A stretch of 64,000 nucleotides of DNA from Gemmatimonas groenlandica (GTDB lineage: Bacteria; Gemmatimonadota; Gemmatimonadetes; Gemmatimonadales; Gemmatimonadaceae). Where the stretch lies: assembly GCF_013004105.1 (NCBI RefSeq), contig NZ_CP053085.1:2852001-2916000 (forward strand). Reading direction: 5' to 3'. A model generated the notes under the pieces. It was not told the DNA's origin, did no database searches, and worked only from the letters and a program-made list of their open reading frames with translations. A program made the position numbers and the translations under genes. This document shows, in pieces, positions 30,486 through 39,922 of this stretch (its first letter is position 1; each line of letters begins with the position of its first letter).

Positions 30486-31937
30486 TCATGTCTCACCACG
30501 AGGGCGCAGGGAGGATGGGACGATTGCGCGCATCAGCTGCGCAATCACGGGCGACCGCAACTGCCAAAAGGCCAATACGGTGAGGAGTGCTCCAACACCC
30601 GCACTCGCAACCGTGCGCTGAGCCAACGAGAGAGCGTGCGGAAGGTGCAACATAGAGTAGTGGAATCCGAGTGCCACCATGGTGCTCACTAGAATCGCCC
30701 GCAGAATCGGAATCACAAAGTCAAGTGACCGGAGCCCAATCGAGACGTGCAGTATGCGGAGCGCCGGCAGAAAGATGATTGGCATCGAAGCCAGTGATCC
30801 CCATGCCATTCCGCTAATACCGAAAAAGTGTGAGAGAACAATCTGTGAGGGAATCGTGAACGCGATAAGGGCGATGCGAATTCGTAGCGAATTCAAGGTA
30901 TTGCCAGTCACGGATAGCGCTTGAGGGAGCACTGCTGTGACAGAGTTTGCGAAGTAGAAGGGAGCCAAAATCCACACTAACCCGATCGCCGGCCTCCACT
31001 TTTCTCCCAACGCCGGGATGATAACCGTATCGCCAGAGACGCAAATCACAGCTAACGGAATTGCAACGACGATCGCAATTCCCTCCGCTAGCGTGACGAG
31101 CACCCTCCTTAGCTCTGTGTGGTCGTCTCGCTTCGACGCAAGAATTGAAGTTCCGATAGGAATGATCATCGCGGCCAATTTCTCTGATGGAAGCGCGGCG
31201 AGTGTCTTTGCAAGCGCGAGAAGCCCGGCCGCACTCGTACCCAGAACGCGAGTAGCGATCATCTGATCCGCATTGCTGTTCAGCATCCAGATCGAAGACT
31301 CGATAAAGAGCCGCTTTCCCGTCTTACGCTGCTCAGTGCTGAGGCTTGAACCGGCCCGCTGCAATCGGCCGGTCAATCGCACGGACATCGCCGAAGCGAG
31401 AAGTGCACCTATAAGTGGACCGATGATAAGAGCCGATGGCCCATCCCAACTGTACGCAATGGCCACGGATGCGCCGGACGCGGCTATCGCGCGCGTGGCA
31501 TCGATGATGCCTACTTCGCGCAGCTTTAGATCACGCTGGAGCACCGCGTATGGGACAGCACGGAACGCTTCGATTGGAATACCGAGGCTGGCGATCATCA
31601 GCACTGCCGCGCTTCCCTGTACACCTAGCAGCCAGGCTATAACGGGCGATGAGAGAAGCACGCAGACGAACACGAGGATGGATCGCCGCACCACTAACTG
31701 GTGGGCGGCTGCAGCGAGGCCGTCGTCGAGCGAATCAGCGACGACGAGCTGCGGCATACCTTGAGTCGCAATTGCTGCACTCCACCCCGACACGATGAGG
31801 GCGAAGCCAGCTTCTCCATAGTCAGCGGGCCCGAGACGCCTCAGCACCAGAAGCGTCGAGATCCAAGAGACGGCCTGCACGAAGAGCCTAAGCGCACCGA
31901 AGCCGGCGATCCGACTCGACAGTGATCTATTGGTCAC
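30486..31937 (-). CDS. Polysaccharide flippase (Wzx/MATE-like)
   Basis: 483 residues with about 12-14 hydrophobic helices and few charged loops. The first helix pair ('GFGALRLFVQAVSWISTLLVLRRLGPADYGEAGF', key part 'LRRLGPADYG') is the signature start of the polysaccharide-biosynthesis flippase family. Role: moving the lipid-linked repeat unit to the periplasmic face. It fits the Wzx/Wzy route suggested by the co-polymerase at 13428. The gene is transcribed towards the GT4 genes. Confidence 0.85.
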   Translation of the reverse strand: MTNRSLSSRIAGFGALRLFVQAVSWISTLLVLRRLGPADYGEAGFALIVSGWSAAIATQGMPQLVVADSLDDGLAAAAHQLVVRRSILVFVCVLLSSPVIAWLLGVQGSAAVLMIASLGIPIEAFRAVPYAVLQRDLKLREVGIIDATRAIAASGASVAIAYSWDGPSALIIGPLIGALLASAMSVRLTGRLQRAGSSLSTEQRKTGKRLFIESSIWMLNSNADQMIATRVLGTSAAGLLALAKTLAALPSEKLAAMIIPIGTSILASKRDDHTELRRVLVTLAEGIAIVVAIPLAVICVSGDTVIIPALGEKWRPAIGLVWILAPFYFANSVTAVLPQALSVTGNTLNSLRIRIALIAFTIPSQIVLSHFFGISGMAWGSLASMPIIFLPALRILHVSIGLRSLDFVIPILRAILVSTMVALGFHYSMLHLPHALSLAQRTVASAGVGALLTVLAFWQLRSPVIAQLMRAIVPSSLRPRGET

Positions 31938-32800
31938 TGTTCTTCCGCCGAAACGCCGCGCTGAACGAATGAGATGTCAAAGACTCGGGATAAACCAAGT
32001 GTGCTTACCGATTCGCTATCGCGGTTCGCGATGCAGTCGAAGTGGCGACCCATTCGAGATCGGGGGCCGCATGCCAAGACAGTTGGAATAAGTGTTCTCG
32101 TAGACTCTCCCGTCAAGCGCATGACCCGAATGCGAGGCGTTCTGAATCGCGCCGCGCGTTTAGCAGGCAGGTTGCGCGGATCACACCCAAAGGCTCGCTG
32201 GTGTGAAGTGAGCAGAACCACGCCCAAACTGCCGCCGGCAGAGCATCGCTAGGCGGTTTCAGAAAGCTCTACCTAGAGCTGAGCCAGCGGACCCATTCAA
32301 GGATCGTGACTTCAAGCTCCCCCTCGGCCTTGCCACGGTCCGTACAGACGGATCGCTTCGCGTTCGAACTATCACATGGCAGCTTCGCCGTGCGCCCATA
32401 CGAGGGACTTCTTCGAAACGGCGAATTGAGGGCCTAGCACAATCCGCCGCCGCGCAGCCCCCGTACATCCTACGTTGTGGTCCGAGGGCCGGCTGGACGG
32501 CGATATGTCCTTCGAGCTTCTGGTCGTGCGAGGCCGGCTCCAACGCGTCGGCCACTGGGCCGCTCCGCATCGTGATGCGCGCCTGCTGACGACGGGGCGC
32601 AAGGCGACATGAGCAAGGCCGCGTCGCGTTGCGACGAAGGTAAAGCGCTCCGGCTGCCGATTCGGATACTCGGAATGGCATTGCCGCTGGCCCAATTCCT
32701 GCGCGCGTTTGGCGGTGGTATCGGTGCTTGTCGCTCGGTGCGCAAGTACACCCAAAGTCCCGCAGTTGATGAACAGGCAAATTCCCGCAGTCGCCGGGAA

Positions 32801-33649
32801 TCAGACTGAGCGGGTGGTCTCCGCTCGCGCGCCCTCCCTGGTGGGGCTGAGCAGGGCGCCGAGTTCGCGGAGCCGGTAGCTCTGGCCGTCGATGTGGACG
32901 ACCGCGACGTGGTGCAGCAGGCAGTCGAGGATCGCGGTCGTCAGGATCTCATCACCGGCAAAGATCTCCGGCCAGTCGCGCATATGTTTGTTCGACGTGA
33001 GCAGCATGGAGCCGCGTTCGTAGCGCGTCGAGACGAGTCGGAAGAAGAGATTCGCCTCGATGCGGTCGAGCGGACGGAAGCCGATTTCGTCGATGATCAG
33101 TAAGCCGCAGTTGAAGTAGCGCCGCGCCCGCAAGCGGGCGGGCGGGGTCGCGGCGTCGGCTTTCAGGACGTGCATCAGATCATCGAGGACGAAGTGCGCG
33201 ACACTGAATCCGTTCTTGATCGCCGTGACGCCAAGGGCCGTCGCCAAGTGACGTTTCCCAACACCCGGCGGCCCGAGAAACAGGACATTGGTCTTCTCGC
33301 GCAGATAGGAGCACGTCGCCAGCGTCTCGATCTGGCGACGATCCGCCTTCGGCTGAAAGCCCCAATCAAACGCTTCCAGCGTCTTGCCCGGTGGTAAGCC
33401 CGAGAGCTTGAGCATCGTCGTGATCCGACGCTCGTCTTTCCGCTCGAGCTGACTCGTCAGCAGGAGATCGAGGAAGGCGAGTGGACTCAAATCGTCGCGC
33501 GCCGCCTGCTCGACGAGCTCCGGCAGCACCAGGGCGGGATGCTCAAGCCCCAGCGTGGTGAGCTTGGCCACCACGGGATCGAGTGTGGTCTGTCCGCTGG
33601 CGGCGGACATCGTCGGGCGCGGCGTGGCGCGCTTGGCGAGCGTGCTCAT
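32801..33649 (-). CDS. istB: IstB-like transposition helper ATPase (IS21 element 1), altered Walker A
   Basis: 282 residues. IstB/DnaC-type AAA+ ATPase with Walker A 'GPPGVGKRHLA', Walker B 'LLIIDEIGF' and the sensor segment 'LLTSNKHMRDW'. The ATG at 33649 overlaps the istA stop (TAATG). Where IstB proteins have G-K-T/S, this one has G-K-R. The residue that coordinates magnesium is therefore missing and ATPase activity is doubtful, in line with its crippled istA. It differs clearly from the istB at 36829, so the two IS21 elements belong to different subgroups. Confidence 0.85.
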   Translation of the reverse strand: MSTLAKRATPRPTMSAASGQTTLDPVVAKLTTLGLEHPALVLPELVEQAARDDLSPLAFLDLLLTSQLERKDERRITTMLKLSGLPPGKTLEAFDWGFQPKADRRQIETLATCSYLREKTNVLFLGPPGVGKRHLATALGVTAIKNGFSVAHFVLDDLMHVLKADAATPPARLRARRYFNCGLLIIDEIGFRPLDRIEANLFFRLVSTRYERGSMLLTSNKHMRDWPEIFAGDEILTTAILDCLLHHVAVVHIDGQSYRLRELGALLSPTREGARAETTRSV

Positions 33650-34266
33650 TATGGCTCTCCCGCGAGGGCGTCGAGGAGGTGCACGTACTGCGCCATCGGG
33701 CGAGCGACGGTCGACGGCGCCGGGAAGCGCTCTAGGACGGTCGCGGCCAGCTGCTGCTGCGCGCGACGCCCGAGCGGCGTCGGCGCGAGCACCTCGCTCG
33801 TGCTCGCGCCGCCGTAATGCGCCTCGTCGATCACGAGGCGCGCCGCGGTGCGGCGCGCATGGCGCGCGACCTCGCGGCCGTCGCCCCACACGACCACGTG
33901 CTGCGCGGTGCCGCGCACGTCGACGGTGCGACCGACCCAGGTGAACGGCACCGTGTAGCGACGTCCCTCGAAGCTCACGAGGTAGTCGCGACTCACGCGC
34001 CGCGCTACCACGCAATCAAAGAGCTCATGGAGCGTCGGCACGGGCTGCAGCAGGCGCTGCTCGTGCGCGAAGGCCTCCGCGATCAGCGAACCCGTGATCG
34101 GACAGCGCCGCGTCGCATGCCACTCGGCACTGCGCTCGTCCAGCGCGGCCTGCAGCGTGGGCAGGTCGGGCCAGTCGTGCACAAAGAGATCGGCGACATC
34201 GACGCGGGCGGTGCGCACCGCCCGCTCCGTCTTGCCCTTATCGCTGCCGGTCGCGCGCCGACACGG
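33649..34266 (-). pseudogene. istA transposase, C-terminal fragment (IS21 element 1)
   Basis: The frame can be read from the junction with the IS3 element at 34266 ('RRATGSDKGKTERAV', the segment that follows the last catalytic region of IstA) through the Mu-transposase-like C-terminal barrel ('RRVSRDYLVSFEGRRYTVPF') to the TAA at 33649. The catalytic core and HTH are missing. It cannot be functional. Confidence 0.8.
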
Positions 34267-34339
34267 ATTGGAGTGACCCCCAGCGGCTCAACAGATGGCG
34301 GGCGCGGTTTGACCTTCGAGGCAGCCCCTCGGAGGATCT

Positions 34340-34696
34340 ATGGCCAAGACGTACCGACGGTTCAGTACCGAGTTCAAGCTCGGGGTCGTGGAGGCGTACC
34401 TCGCGGGTGAGGGCAGCCTCAAAGGCCTCGCCACCAAGGCCGGCGTCGATCACTCGCTGGTGCACTACTGGCTGAAGAAGTATCACGCCGGCGAGCTCTC
34501 GCTCGATCTGCTGCGCGAGGAAGAGTCGGTCGAAACGGCGCAGCACATCGCCGCGCTCGAGCGGAAGGTGGGTCAGCTCACCATGGAGATCGACCTGCTA
34601 AAAAGGGGGCTCATCGCCGCCCCCGCGACGAGCAGCGGGCGGTCGTTGATCATCTCCGGGCCGACGGCCTCAGCGCCCGACGAGGATGTCGCATGA
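34340..34696 (+). CDS. IS3-family transposase OrfA
   Basis: 118 residues. HTH_Tnp_1-type DNA-binding domain at the N-terminus ('FSTEFKLGVVEAYLAGEGSL', 'GVDHSLVHYWLKKY') and a leucine-zipper-like helix near 75-92 ('ALERKVGQLTMEIDLLKRG') for OrfA/OrfAB pairing. A run of A (around 34601-34604) followed by a G-run near the end is the kind of site where IS3 elements shift by -1 to make the fusion transposase. It appears intact. Confidence 0.88.
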   Translation: MAKTYRRFSTEFKLGVVEAYLAGEGSLKGLATKAGVDHSLVHYWLKKYHAGELSLDLLREEESVETAQHIAALERKVGQLTMEIDLLKRGLIAAPATSSGRSLIISGPTASAPDEDVA

Positions 34697-35519
34697 TCGG
34701 GCTGCCGCGGAGCACCTACTACCGGCGGCCACGCGAAGGAGACGAGTCCGCGAGCAAGGCCGATGCCGACCTCCGAGCCGCCATCGCGCAGGTGCAGCGC
34801 GACTTCCCAGGGTACGGGTACCGGCGCATCACCCGCGAGCTGCGCGCCGGGCCACACCGCGCGAATCACAAGCGCGTGCAGCGCGTCACGCAAGCGATGC
34901 TCCGCCCCCGTCGGCTCGCCGTCGACCATGGGTCGTCGCGGAGCCGGACTCGGTATCCGGTTCGTGGTATCCCAATCTCCGGGCAGAGATCATCCCGACG
35001 GGCCCAAATCAACTCTGGGTATCCGACATCACCTACGTGCGGCTCGAGCGGGCCTTCGTCTTTCTCGCGGTCGTACTGGATGTGTTCTCGCGCAAGGTAA
35101 TCGGCTATGCGATTGGCCCGACACTCGACGCGCGCCTCCCCCTTGCCGCCCTGGACGCCGCGATCGAAAGTCGGCAGCCACCGCCAGGCTGCGTGCACCA
35201 CTCTGACCGCGGCTCGCAATATTCGTCCGGGCGCTACCGAGAGCGGCTCGCCGAGGCAGGGCTCTTGGGCTCGATGTCACGGGCGGGTAATCCGTACGAC
35301 AACGCGCACGTCGAGAGCTTCATGAAGACGCTCAAGCACGAATAGATCTATCCGCGCGGCTACCGCACCATGGCCGACGTCATTGCGCACCTTCCGCACT
35401 TCCTGGAGAGCACCTACAACAACAAGCGGCAGCACTCTGCCTTGAACTATCGGTCACCGAATGCCTTCGAGGCCGTTCACGCGCTCATCCTTTCATCCGG
35501 TCAAATCTCAGCCCCCTGA
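34693..35519 (+). pseudogene. IS3-family transposase OrfB, frameshifted and with an internal amber codon
   Basis: The HTH_21 part starts in one frame ('MIGLPRSTYYRR', 'FPGYGYRRITREL'). The integrase core continues in another ('PNQLWVSDITYVRL' with the first Asp, 'VHHSDRGSQY' with the second Asp, 'YDNAHVESF' with the Glu). The frame change lies around 34898-34925. A TAG at 35343-35345 replaces what is normally a Glu codon after 'MKTLKHE', and the rest ('YPRGYRTMADV', 'YNNKRQHSALNY') reads on to the TGA at 35517. The element is therefore not autonomous. Confidence 0.85.
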
Positions 35520-35800
35520 TTGTCCAACCAAGAGGGGTCACTCCAATCGGTGCGGGAATTTGGGTGTACGTCTACACTCGGTGCAGCGAACCTCCGCAGT
35601 TCGCCGCGCAGGCCCGCTGCTTTCATGATCCGAGCGACGCTGCACTCTGGATCGTCTCCCTGCCTCGCAGTATGTCATCACCAGTATGAAATTGCGCAGA
35701 GTCACCAAGATGAATTGCGCACTTGGGAGCTTTCCTGCGAGGCCCTCCGCCAGCCTCGTGTCGACGCGACCTTGGTCTCTTCCCTTGGGGGAGGAGACTG

Positions 35801-36832
35801 GTGTACAGCAGGGATACCCTCGTGTTGCTACAGCACTTGTTGGATCAGGGGCTCGGGAAGCGGGCCATCGCCACGCAGTTAGGAGTGAGCTCGCGGACGG
35901 TCCATCACTGGATCGCGACTGGGCAGCTGACGCGGGTGGTCGAGACGCCGGTGATCCGGACGACCGCACCGCGTCCGCAGCGACTGGATCCGTTTAAGCC
36001 GCTCATTCACGAGCGACTGGGGTCGTATCCGGCCCTGTCCGCAGAGCGACTGTTCGCCGAGTGTCGGGCCGCCGGGTACGTCGGCGGCGTGACACGCCTC
36101 CGCGATTATGTAGCCCGCGTCCGGCCGCGTGCGGAGCCGGAGCCGATCATTCGCTTTGAGACGGCGCCCGGATGGCAGGGGCAGTTCGATTTCGCCGAAG
36201 TGAAGTTGCCGTGGGGCAAGCGCTACGCGGTGCTCGTCGTCCTTGGCTACTCGCGCAAGTTGTACGTGGAGTTCGTGCCGCGGCAGACGGCGCTGACGGT
36301 GATGCAGAGTTTGGAGCGCGCGTTCGCGGACTTCGGTGGCGTGCCGTCGGAGATGCTGTTCGATCAGCTCAAGGCCGTCATCGTCGAGGATCAGCGTCCG
36401 GGTGGCGGGAAGCTGCTCGAAAATGCAGAGTTCGGGCGCTTCGCCGCGCACTGGGGTTTTCGCATTCGCGCATGCCGCCCGTATCGCGCACAGACCAAAG
36501 GCAAAGTCGAGCGACCGGTCGGCTACCTCCGCACCAGCTTTCTCTACGGCCGGGAGTTTCTCGGCGATGCGGACCTCGCCGATCAGTGCACGCGCTGGCT
36601 CGCGGAGGTCGCCAATGTGCGGATCCACGGGACGACCGGTGAGTCGCCGGCCGCCCGCTTCCTTCGCGACGAGCAGGCCACCCTCCAGCCGCTCGCCGCG
36701 CGACCGTATCGGTCGATGGTCTTGGTCGCCCCGCAGGTCGAGCCCGCGCCGACCCGTCGGGTGCCGCACGTCGCCGTCGAGCGACGGGCCCTCGCCCACT
36801 ATGGCGCGTTGCTCGCCGAGGAGGCCTCATGA
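35801..36832 (+). CDS. istA: IS21 transposase IstA
   Basis: 343 residues from the GTG at 35801, chosen because a GGAGG site lies just upstream and the sequence from here ('VYSRDTLVLLQHLLDQGLGKRAIA') is the usual IstA start. HTH ~15-45 ('LGVSSRTVHHWI'). The DDE core includes 'WQGQFDFAEVKLPWG' (first Asp), 'EMLFDQLKAVI' (second Asp) and 'RAQTKGKVERPVGYL' (Glu). The length is that of the shorter IS21 subgroup. The stop overlaps istB (ATGA). Likely active. Confidence 0.92.
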   Translation: MYSRDTLVLLQHLLDQGLGKRAIATQLGVSSRTVHHWIATGQLTRVVETPVIRTTAPRPQRLDPFKPLIHERLGSYPALSAERLFAECRAAGYVGGVTRLRDYVARVRPRAEPEPIIRFETAPGWQGQFDFAEVKLPWGKRYAVLVVLGYSRKLYVEFVPRQTALTVMQSLERAFADFGGVPSEMLFDQLKAVIVEDQRPGGGKLLENAEFGRFAAHWGFRIRACRPYRAQTKGKVERPVGYLRTSFLYGREFLGDADLADQCTRWLAEVANVRIHGTTGESPAARFLRDEQATLQPLAARPYRSMVLVAPQVEPAPTRRVPHVAVERRALAHYGALLAEEAS

Positions 36833-37659
36833 GCGGCGGCACGCTGCGCGACCGACTTCGCACCCAGCTGGCCGACTGCAAGATGCCCGGCGCCCTGGAA
36901 GCGGTGGATGACATCCTGCGCCGCATTGATGCCGGCGAGTTGAGCGCCGGTCCCGCGATGGAAGCGCTGCTCGGCAGTCACATTGCGCTCCGCAATCAGC
37001 GCCGCCTCCAGACGGCGATGCGCTGTGCGCGATTGCCGACGGTGAAGACGCTCGACGATTTCGACTTCACGTTTCAGCCGTCGGTGAAACGCGATCAGCT
37101 CGAGAGTCTCCACACGCTGCAGTTCCTCGAGCGCAAAGAAAATGTCGTGTTTCTCGGGCCGCCCGGTGTCGGGAAGACGCACTTGGCGATCAGTCTGGCG
37201 GTGATCGCGGCGGAGCGCGGACGACGCGTCTACTATGCGACGCTGGCGGACTTAATCACGTGGCTCGAAGACGCGCAGCAGGCCGGCCATCTCACGCGAC
37301 GGCTGCGCACCCTTGTGTCGCCGAGCCTCATGGTCGTCGACGAAATCGGCTACCTGCCGATCTCGCGCACGGGCGCCCAGTTGTTCTTCCAGCTCATGAG
37401 TCGACGCTACGAACACGCGTCAACCGTGCTCACCAGCAACAAATCCTTCGAGGAGTGGGGCGACGTCTTCGGGGACGAGGTCATGGCCGCCGCGCTCATT
37501 GATCGCCTAGTCCACCACTGCCACATCGTCAACATCCGCGGCAACAGCTACCGCATGCGCGAACATCGCGCGCTCGCCTCACGCTTGGCCACGCCGGCCT
37601 CGCCGGAACCCTCCGGCGCCCCGGTTCGTGGTCGCGCCCCCCGACGCCAGGAGGGCTGA
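36829..37659 (+). CDS. istB: IS21 helper ATPase IstB
   Basis: 276 residues. AAA+ ATPase with intact Walker A 'GPPGVGKTHLA', Walker B 'LMVVDEIGY' and 'VLTSNKSFEEWGD'. The ATG overlaps the istA stop, the normal coupling in IS21. Known role: ATP-dependent target selection and activation of IstA. The tail has an extra basic stretch rich in Ala/Pro/Arg. Confidence 0.93.
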   Translation: MSGGTLRDRLRTQLADCKMPGALEAVDDILRRIDAGELSAGPAMEALLGSHIALRNQRRLQTAMRCARLPTVKTLDDFDFTFQPSVKRDQLESLHTLQFLERKENVVFLGPPGVGKTHLAISLAVIAAERGRRVYYATLADLITWLEDAQQAGHLTRRLRTLVSPSLMVVDEIGYLPISRTGAQLFFQLMSRRYEHASTVLTSNKSFEEWGDVFGDEVMAAALIDRLVHHCHIVNIRGNSYRMREHRALASRLATPASPEPSGAPVRGRAPRRQEG

Positions 37660-38725
37660 CCCTACCGGGCTCATCCCCCGCCCACAGTGCGCAATTCTTG
37701 TTGGTGAAAGTGCGCAATTCTCGTTGGTGTTGACACAGTAGCTGCCTCACTTTACGAACGCCATATACGCGTCGATGTGGCGCGACTCCGCGCGCTGAAT
37801 TTGAACGCGTGGGACATCGACTCGCCGCTATCGCGCTGGGAGGCGCGGCCGGTACAACCGGCGTTTACAACTCGTGCGTCATCCGGACGGTGCTATGGCC
37901 AACGCGCGGCACGTCGGCTCGACCCAGCGCAGCCTCCCACCCATTTCTATGAACTTGCAGATCGACGGCTGAGGCGGTTCGGCTCCCGAGTGGAGCGTAC
38001 CGCCGCTGCGGCAACAGCACTCGGATGCAGTCGCTCGTCATTGGCCCTCTCTAGCGCGCGCTATTCGTGCTCGGGCGCGGCCGGGCGACCCGCACCACCG
38101 CGCTGCTCAGATGCGTCTTGTAGAGCCTTGGGCAGCAACCGACGCAGCGAGGCGCTCGTGCAGCCAAATGTCGGCGCGATAGCCGAAATGGCTGCTAACT
38201 TGGACGGATTCCGTGGCATCGGCACCGATTCTAGTCGGAGAGCCTGTTCACGAACCTCAGATTTGAATCGGTTCGCTCGGGATGCTTTCATAGCTCCAAG
38301 TACTAACCAAGTTGAGCCCTTTGTACTCGCGGGGCGAATCAACCTCGCCTTTGACGCAGATCAGAGTGCAGCATTACACCACGCATTGTCCGCGCGATTC
38401 TGCCAGTCGCCTCGTTGTCTCGACTCCTGCGAATGCTTGGGGCGATTCGATCGGCGTCGCCGCGCGCTATGCGCTGGTGGACTGCTTCGGCAGGTGGTAT
38501 ACTCAAAAGCTTGCAGAAGCGTAACTTTATCAGCGCCACAGAGTAGGCTCCGTGCGCCGTGGCTCCGGCAGCGCAATGCCGAAATAGCTAGGGTCGTGAG
38601 AGGGCTGCTTTAAGCGAATTGGGCTTATGGCGCCAAGGCGTCGAACTGTTTAGTCGCCGACCGGTTGTCTGGACTATGTGCGCTGGGCAGCGTGTCGGCC
38701 GGCCCGGCAGCCTCGCGTTCCGTTG

Positions 38726-39922
38726 ATGACGGAGAGTATGAGAACGATCCAAACTCGATCGCTTAAGCGACAGAGACTCCGCGTGCTTTATGTAGAGGCC
38801 GCACTAGGATATGGCGGCTCTGGAAAGAGTCTGGTGGAATTGGTCCGGTCGATACCCGACATAGACGCCCGCATTCTCGCGGGATTTCCGATCGCGGATT
38901 TTGTCACCGAGGCCGATTCTGTCGAGGTTGAGGTGAATCCCGCACTAGTTCGGTTGCGAGATGCATCGGCCGGTCGGCTTATTTCCTACGTCGATCTCTT
39001 GTGCTATACGGCGCGATGGATTCGAGCCATCAAGCGTTCAGCGCGTCGGCATCGCGCCGACATCGTGCACGCAAACAACGGCATAGCTTTAAACTTGGCT
39101 GCCATTATCGCGTGCCGGAGTCTTGGCGTCCCATTAGTCGTGCACCAGCGTGGATGGGAAGAGCGGACTCAACGCTTTTCGCTTGCACGGACGCTCCTCG
39201 GCAGAGCCCGCGTGATCGCGATATCAGAGGCAATCGCAGATGATCTGTCCACTCTTGGAATCGCCCATGAAAGCGTGTCTCAGATCTACGACGTTGTCAT
39301 TCCTCCGTTGAAACCGTTCGAGGATTCGCCCAGAGCACCCGGCCCTTGGAGGGTCGCAATGCATGGAGTACTCAATCGCTGGAAAGGCCACGATACATTC
39401 CTCTCAGCAGCAGCTTTACTAAACGCGCGGCGTCCTGGCGAGTTTCTTTTTCGTATCGCGGGCATGCCCCTTAGCGGCGACGACGAGTATGGGCGATTTC
39501 TTCACTCAAGGGCACGAGAGCTTAATGTCGAACAGATCGTGCACTTTGATGGATTCGTACGCGACATATATGAGTGGCTCAGCAGCGTTGACATAAGCGT
39601 GCATGCGTCGACGCACGCTGAACCTTTAGGGCGAGTAATAGTGGAGGCACAGCTCGCTGGCAGGCCAGTTATCGCAGCGCGCGGGGGTGGGGCCAACGAA
39701 CTTGTGGAGTCCGGCGTCACAGGACTGATGTTTGAGCCTGGCTCCGCGACGGAGCTGGCAAACGCAATCGAACGGCTCGCCTCAGACGCTCACTTGCGGA
39801 AGCAATTGGCTGCAAGCGCGGAAGAACTGACGAGGAGCCGCTTCGACCAGGTTCGCCTCGCTGCAAGTGTGCGCCGAGTTTATGACGAGATCATTCCGTC
39901 CCGAGATACGCTAGCCGACTAA
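38726..39922 (+). CDS. Glycosyltransferase family 4
   Basis: 398 residues from the ATG at 38726; another ATG at 38738 with a closer GGAG is possible. N-terminal domain with a glycine-rich loop ('YVEAALGYGGSGKSL'). C-terminal GT4 motifs: 'LNRWKGHDTFL', 'HAEPLGRVIVEAQLAG' (E-x7-E) and 'PVIAARGGGANELV'. EPS repeat-unit transferase, sugar unknown. Its 3' end overlaps the 3' end of the opposite gene by 12 bases. Confidence 0.87.
   Translation: MTESMRTIQTRSLKRQRLRVLYVEAALGYGGSGKSLVELVRSIPDIDARILAGFPIADFVTEADSVEVEVNPALVRLRDASAGRLISYVDLLCYTARWIRAIKRSARRHRADIVHANNGIALNLAAIIACRSLGVPLVVHQRGWEERTQRFSLARTLLGRARVIAISEAIADDLSTLGIAHESVSQIYDVVIPPLKPFEDSPRAPGPWRVAMHGVLNRWKGHDTFLSAAALLNARRPGEFLFRIAGMPLSGDDEYGRFLHSRARELNVEQIVHFDGFVRDIYEWLSSVDISVHASTHAEPLGRVIVEAQLAGRPVIAARGGGANELVESGVTGLMFEPGSATELANAIERLASDAHLRKQLAASAEELTRSRFDQVRLAASVRRVYDEIIPSRDTLAD

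Follow-up and report, generated by a model that had tools for sequence, protein, structure and literature searches.

A nest of four insertion sequences in Gemmatimonas groenlandica and the placement of related IS3-family elements at IS21 ends

Architecture of the nest

The window, i.e. the whole stretch of DNA analysed here, is 64,000 nucleotides long and corresponds to positions 2852001-2916000 of the single-contig 5.18-Mb genome of Gemmatimonas groenlandica. A nest of four insertion sequences lies in the window, with a polysaccharide-transport gene (30486-31937) to one side and a glycosyltransferase gene (38678-39922) to the other: an old IS3-family element (old IS3), two IS21-family elements (IS21-1 and IS21-2) and a second IS3-family element (IS3-2). 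Features are listed below in window coordinates.

32254-32738, minus strand: old IS3 fragment 3, rest of OrfB, decayed (reference residues 215-387)
32734-32738: target duplication CTCGG of IS21-1, left copy, exact
32739-35576, minus strand: IS21-1 (IS21 family), istA truncated, carries IS3-2; ends TGCGCAAGTACACCC / TGTAGACGTACACCC; 79% identical to the complete relative L032
32801-33652, minus strand: istB of IS21-1 (Pfam IstB_IS21, E 1.6e-71)
33649-34268, minus strand: istA remnant of IS21-1, C-terminal part only (Mu-transpos_C_2, E 1e-18); homology to IstA of L032 up to the IS3-2 border
34269-35545, plus strand: IS3-2 (IS3 family), defective, 1277 bp; inverted repeats TGGAGTGACCCC/GGGGTCACTCCA; Pfam HTH_Tnp_1 and rve
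35546-35576, minus strand: outermost terminal repeat of IS21-1, 31 bp, directly abutting IS3-2; TGTAGACGTACACCCAAATTCCCGCACCGAT; matches the end of L032
35577-35581: target duplication CTCGG of IS21-1, right copy, exact
35582-35672, minus strand: old IS3 fragment 2, 91 bp between the IS21 sites (reference residues 185-214)
35668-35672: target duplication CAGTA of IS21-2, left copy, exact
35673-37735, plus strand: IS21-2 (IS21 family), complete, 2063 bp; ends TGTCATCACC/TGTCAACACC; second genomic copy
35723-36832, plus strand: istA of IS21-2 (open reading frame limits, true start perhaps slightly downstream; Pfam rve, E 6.4e-15)
36829-37659, plus strand: istB of IS21-2 (Pfam IstB_IS21, E 2.9e-85)
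37736-37740: target duplication CAGTA of IS21-2, right copy, exact
37741-38291, minus strand: old IS3 fragment 1, OrfA and N-terminal part of OrfB, decayed (reference residues 1-184, with frameshifts and stops)

The initial annotation described an old IS3 struck by two IS21 elements, with a second IS3 inside IS21-1, and the splice alignment bears this architecture out. We used the complete ISAli4-type IS3 OrfAB from an Azospirillum plasmid as reference and aligned it by a frameshift-tolerant dynamic programme. With 32739-35576 and 35673-37735 removed, the three minus-strand pieces form one collinear, decayed IS3 OrfAB that scored 306, versus 172 for the unspliced sequence and 168 for a wrong fragment order. 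The spliced sequence also aligned better than the separate pieces, which scored 168, 66 and 94 alone. Fragment 2 codes for exactly the roughly 30 residues that separate fragments 1 and 3; the score was 251 when it was inverted and 244 on average when it was shuffled. Full shuffling of the sequence (24 shuffles) gave a mean of 49 and a maximum of 93. Both junctions were crossed with no notable gap, at residues 184/185 for the IS21-2 site and 214/215 for the IS21-1 site. Spliced old IS3 thus shows the collinear OrfA/OrfB homology of the IS3 family. Its start codon is at 38291-38289, and its OrfA has a relative in the same genus (L019). The duplications CTCGG and CAGTA are exact at the positions claimed for them, and the distance between the IS21 sites in the ancestral IS3, put at about 90 bases, is 91 bp.

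Both IS21 elements carry the marks of their family, namely istA (rve, Mu-transpos_C_2; a remnant in IS21-1) followed by istB (IstB_IS21), TG...CA termini, tandem terminal motifs and duplications in the family range of 4 to 8 bp. The second copy of IS21-2 in the same genome (G000:C1:1597469-1599531) is 96% identical, ends at the same points and has a 5-bp duplication of its own, ACGTT; therefore the borders of IS21-2 are certain.

The relative history that had been proposed stands in part. Old IS3 was indeed struck later by both IS21 elements. Its decay before these hits is plausible: IS21-2 is close to a sister copy with open reading frames, whereas the IS3 is full of stops and frameshifts. 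The arrival of IS3-2 as the last step is not implied by the nesting. Since IS21-1 could have come as a composite, already loaded with IS3-2, nesting does not give the relative age of IS3-2 and of the IS21-1 insertion here. A DNA search of 30 genomes, searched as the genus, found no unoccupied site, since among them the flank of the nest is matched in the source genome alone. Taken as such, the nest is an ordinary find that had been described correctly. The part worth following is the placement rule of its inner element.

Position of IS3-2 and the deletion in IS21-1

We found no further copy of IS21-1 in the source genome and therefore took the intact form from its relative L032, a complete element of 2337 bp in the same genus with a 436-residue IstA. 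IS21-1 matches L032 from its left end to 34268 and then only over the last 26-31 bp or so. Relative to L032 it is short of about 796 bp, including the N-terminal part of istA. IS3-2 is located exactly on this deletion junction, 31 bp inside the IS21-1 terminus. IS21-1 had been read as interrupted by IS3-2, which is right, but the loss within istA had been overlooked, as had the fact that the position of IS3-2 is part of a recurring pattern.

IS3-2 has the OrfA helix-turn-helix (HTH_Tnp_1, 4e-9) and OrfB rve/DDE (rve, 3.8e-23) domains of the IS3 family. The NCBIfam model transpos_IS3 gave 2.9e-43 for the broken element, under the model cut-off, and 1.6e-91 for a relative (P0002). The first 74 residues of its OrfB reading frame match a relative in another frame, and there is an early stop at 35343-35345; a frameshift near 34925 is probable in OrfB (34924-35345), and related copies read through. 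Of the TG-started inverted repeats and the 3- to 5-bp target duplication expected in the family, IS3-2 has the repeats; GAT stands at its left border and ATC at its right, so there is no direct duplication, and its relatives show one of 3 bp. An intact-size relative (L070) has an OrfA 97% identical to that of IS3-2, and relatives bearing an inner IS3 of the same type occur in Gemmatimonas and Gemmatimonadaceae. We also considered longer ends for IS3-2, with a 19-bp inverted repeat (CACGGATTGGAGTGACCCC / GGGGTCACTCCAATCGGTG) and a CGG duplication, and rejected them, given that the relatives share only TGGAGTGA(A/C)CCCC and have their 3-bp duplications right at TGGAG. Elsewhere in the genome (G000:C1:35306-35434) there is a short, 81%-identical left-end remnant of an element of the IS3-2 type.

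Placement of the IS3-2 group at IS21 ends

The close relatives of IS3-2 all adjoin IS21-type ends, and we therefore collected the group more widely. It consists of IS3-family elements of about 1275 bp with inverted repeats TGGAGTGA(A/C)CCCC. Terminal patterns were searched in 395 genomes of the phylum and proteins in genomes of Pseudomonadota and in plasmids; annotated plasmid loci were added. An end was counted only if an open reading frame of the group lay beside the inverted repeat. This excluded four loci of one genome (G196, L112-L115) in which an IS3-type inverted repeat comes after an IS21-type end of 31 bp and no IS3 reading frames are recognisable; they are remnants or non-autonomous elements.

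The 61 ends that were unique by their 50-bp flank come from Gemmatimonadota and from Alpha-, Beta- and Gammaproteobacteria. An IS21-type TGT terminus was found at exactly 31 bp in 29 of them and at 30-33 bp in 34. Among ends unique by their 31-bp flank, TGT stood exactly 31 bp outside the inverted repeat in 21/52, versus a mean of 0.83 for each other distance. The binomial p value of this peak is about 2e-24 (n=52), uncorrected for relatedness or shared ancestry; because it ignores shared ancestry, the nine end-sequence classes spanned by the ends with 31-bp spacing are a more cautious measure of independence. A control of six ends from another IS3 group, a small set, had no peak at 31. One end-sequence class accounts for 19 of the 34 ends at 30-33 bp, which may share ancestry through the spread of cassettes. 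A distant relative (L177; OrfA about 40%, repeats TGGAGTGCGCCCC), which played no part in forming the hypothesis and is out-of-sample, also has an IS21-type end (TGTCAATCGG...) exactly 31 bp outside its inverted repeat, on one side.

One could suppose that the inner IS3 landed in IS21-1 at random and that its position means nothing, considering that IS elements nest often and that IS3-2 is defective and has no duplication. We give this next to no credence, as the same spacing recurs far over expectation, although the distance spectrum refutes chance for the group and not for the window copy alone.

Members of the group occur in two modes. In the first, simple insertions have the 3-bp duplication of IS3. 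On a Gemmobacter plasmid (L169), a group IS3 with the duplication AAC lies in the right end, 31 bp from the terminus, of an IS21 that has intact istA/istB, its L1 at position 448 and an outer duplication of 8 bp, GGGGAGGA. On a Hydrogenophaga plasmid (L153), two members with the duplications GAT and GCC lie in or beside an ISPpn1-like IS21, at 41 and 7 bp from the termini, respectively. A further member has the duplication AAC (L075), and another, with the duplication CAG, lies outside any IS21 in an ABC-transporter region (L176). In the second mode, cassettes, IS21 ends of 31 or 32 bp flank the IS3 on both sides, and the IS3 itself shows no duplication.

The cassettes bear on two other readings. 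The first is that the 31-bp spacing reflects common descent, a few chance IS3 insertions in IS21 ends having been spread by IS21 transposition. It would fit the symmetric cassettes with outer duplications of 5 to 7 bp typical of IS21 (ACCACGG in L167, TGGAAGG in L144, GTGAG in L143) and the conservation of the IS3 plus 31-bp ends as a unit of about 1338 bp in several Rhizobiaceae plasmids. However, the same spacing is found with nine distinct end-sequence classes, including TGTAGACGTACACCC of the window and TGTCAACACCAA, and in the distant relative L177, and the clean 3-bp duplications within istAB-bearing IS21 elements mark separate insertions. We consider common descent alone unlikely. Far less probable still is the second reading, that the IS21-like 31 bp are the true outer ends of an IS3-like element with 43-bp ends. 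Many cassettes have two similar ends that co-vary within a copy (L167, L182, L183, L185), as would be expected of such an element. It is largely refuted by the 3-bp duplications directly at TGGAG in L153 (twice), L169, L075 and L176; insertions 7, 20 and 41 bp from IS21 termini likewise mark TGGAG as the IS3 end, and in the window copy only one side has an IS21 end.

Placement within the group is thus non-random, as seen from its position, its recurrence over many IS21 end types, the 3-bp duplications and the two-sided cassettes. The reading that we favour, and hold to be quite probable from the sequence comparisons, is that the group of IS3-2 preferentially inserts into IS21 ends, the usual site being 31 bp from the TG terminus, in the spacer that follows the outermost terminal repeat. 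The distance spectrum, the end classes and L177 suggest that the group behaves as target-specific IS elements do, with many independent copies found non-randomly at one defined site. About half of the group ends have no intact IS21 terminus at 30-33 bp and some members, such as L176, lie in unrelated DNA; the preference, though strong, is therefore not absolute, or it is in part a matter of ascertainment.

Under the favoured reading, the simplest account would be that the IS3 transposase itself picks the spacer behind the outermost IS21 terminal repeat. A cassette may then result if IS3 copies enter both ends of one IS21 and these direct repeats recombine, with loss of istAB. In L169 the first 30 bp or so of both IS21 ends are alike, so a double hit followed by recombination would yield a cassette with the outer duplication kept. 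Through a secondary event of this kind, at a similar site (left CACGGAT, right CACCGAT), IS3-2 may have deleted part of the istA of IS21-1.

In the proteobacterial cases the last bases of the IS21 repeat are TGACCC, similar to part of the IS3 inverted repeat (TGGAGTGAACCCC), so that recognition of end-like sequences is possible there. Such recognition has been described for IS911. In the Gemmatimonadota cases its last bases are CCGCA or GCACA; thus recognition would be looser, or the end bound by IstA is what is seen. The 31-bp spacing over nine classes, with repeats ending in such different motifs as GACCC, CCGCA and GCACA, leads to a more speculative and somewhat doubtful proposal, that what the transposase recognises in an IS21 end is its position, or the end complex with bound IstA, and not its sequence. 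If this were true, one IS would be parasitising the transposition complex of another, with double hits and recombination deleting istAB.

Two other arrangements were seen. On a Roseomonas mucosa plasmid (L163, 3001-5703), a group OrfA is directly followed by an intact istA-istB, the IS21 apparently lying within the IS3 (reverse nesting). On a Sphingobium fuliginis plasmid (L179, 2921-4168), a distant relative of IS3-2 with the duplication ATC lies just upstream of a tniA/tniB-type operon, among repeated GATCGGTGGA motifs; the end of a Tn402-like element is possibly a target too.

Comparison with known elements

IS4321 and IS5075 (IS110/IS1111 families) target Tn21-type terminal inverted repeats and use an RNA-guided DEDD recombinase. 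Like the IS3-2 group they insert in the ends of another mobile element, whereas the IS3-2 group has a DDE IS3 transposase and IS21 ends as target. Both are named in PMC11187229 and in other papers. According to the passage of PMC1525189 that cites the original work, the transposases of IS1397 and ISKpn1 set the choice of target, palindromic units (REP). These share with the IS3-2 group the IS3 family and specificity for a small repeated DNA structure, but their target is chromosomal REP/BIME DNA and not the end of another IS. The ISAjo2 group of the IS1202 family targets pdif and dif sites, 5 bp from the XerC site (PMC10132070). It has likewise a fixed spacing from a protein-binding site, although the IS family and target are different.

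We found no earlier report of IS3 elements targeting IS21 ends in the open-access papers searched. Nests of IS elements are usually taken as chance, but here the inner insertion obeys a rule across phyla. With the ends of another IS, the rule would extend the short list of target classes known for IS3 elements. It would also provide a simple route by which an IS21 loses its transposition genes and becomes an IS3-carrying end cassette, and it makes transposon-on-transposon targeting testable with two small elements.

A parallel in placement from a second IS3 group, already known, is IS1353 in IS1326. On R100 (Tn21/In2), IS1353 starts 28 bp from the IS1326 terminus, and like the IS3-2 group it is an IS3-family element about 28 bp inside an IS21-family terminus. 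It differs from IS3-2 in its IS3 group, its fused reading frame of about 514 residues and its inverted repeat TGGGGGTGCGGAC. We found no report in the open-access literature searched that treats this position as target specificity, and ISKpn38, a relative of IS1353 that we checked, is not in an IS21 end. On the Hydrogenophaga plasmid (L153, 8654-11880), an IS1353-like element is flanked by two different IS21 ends of about 29 bp. One of the IS21 ends beside it also carries an element of the IS3-2 group, 7 bp from the tip.
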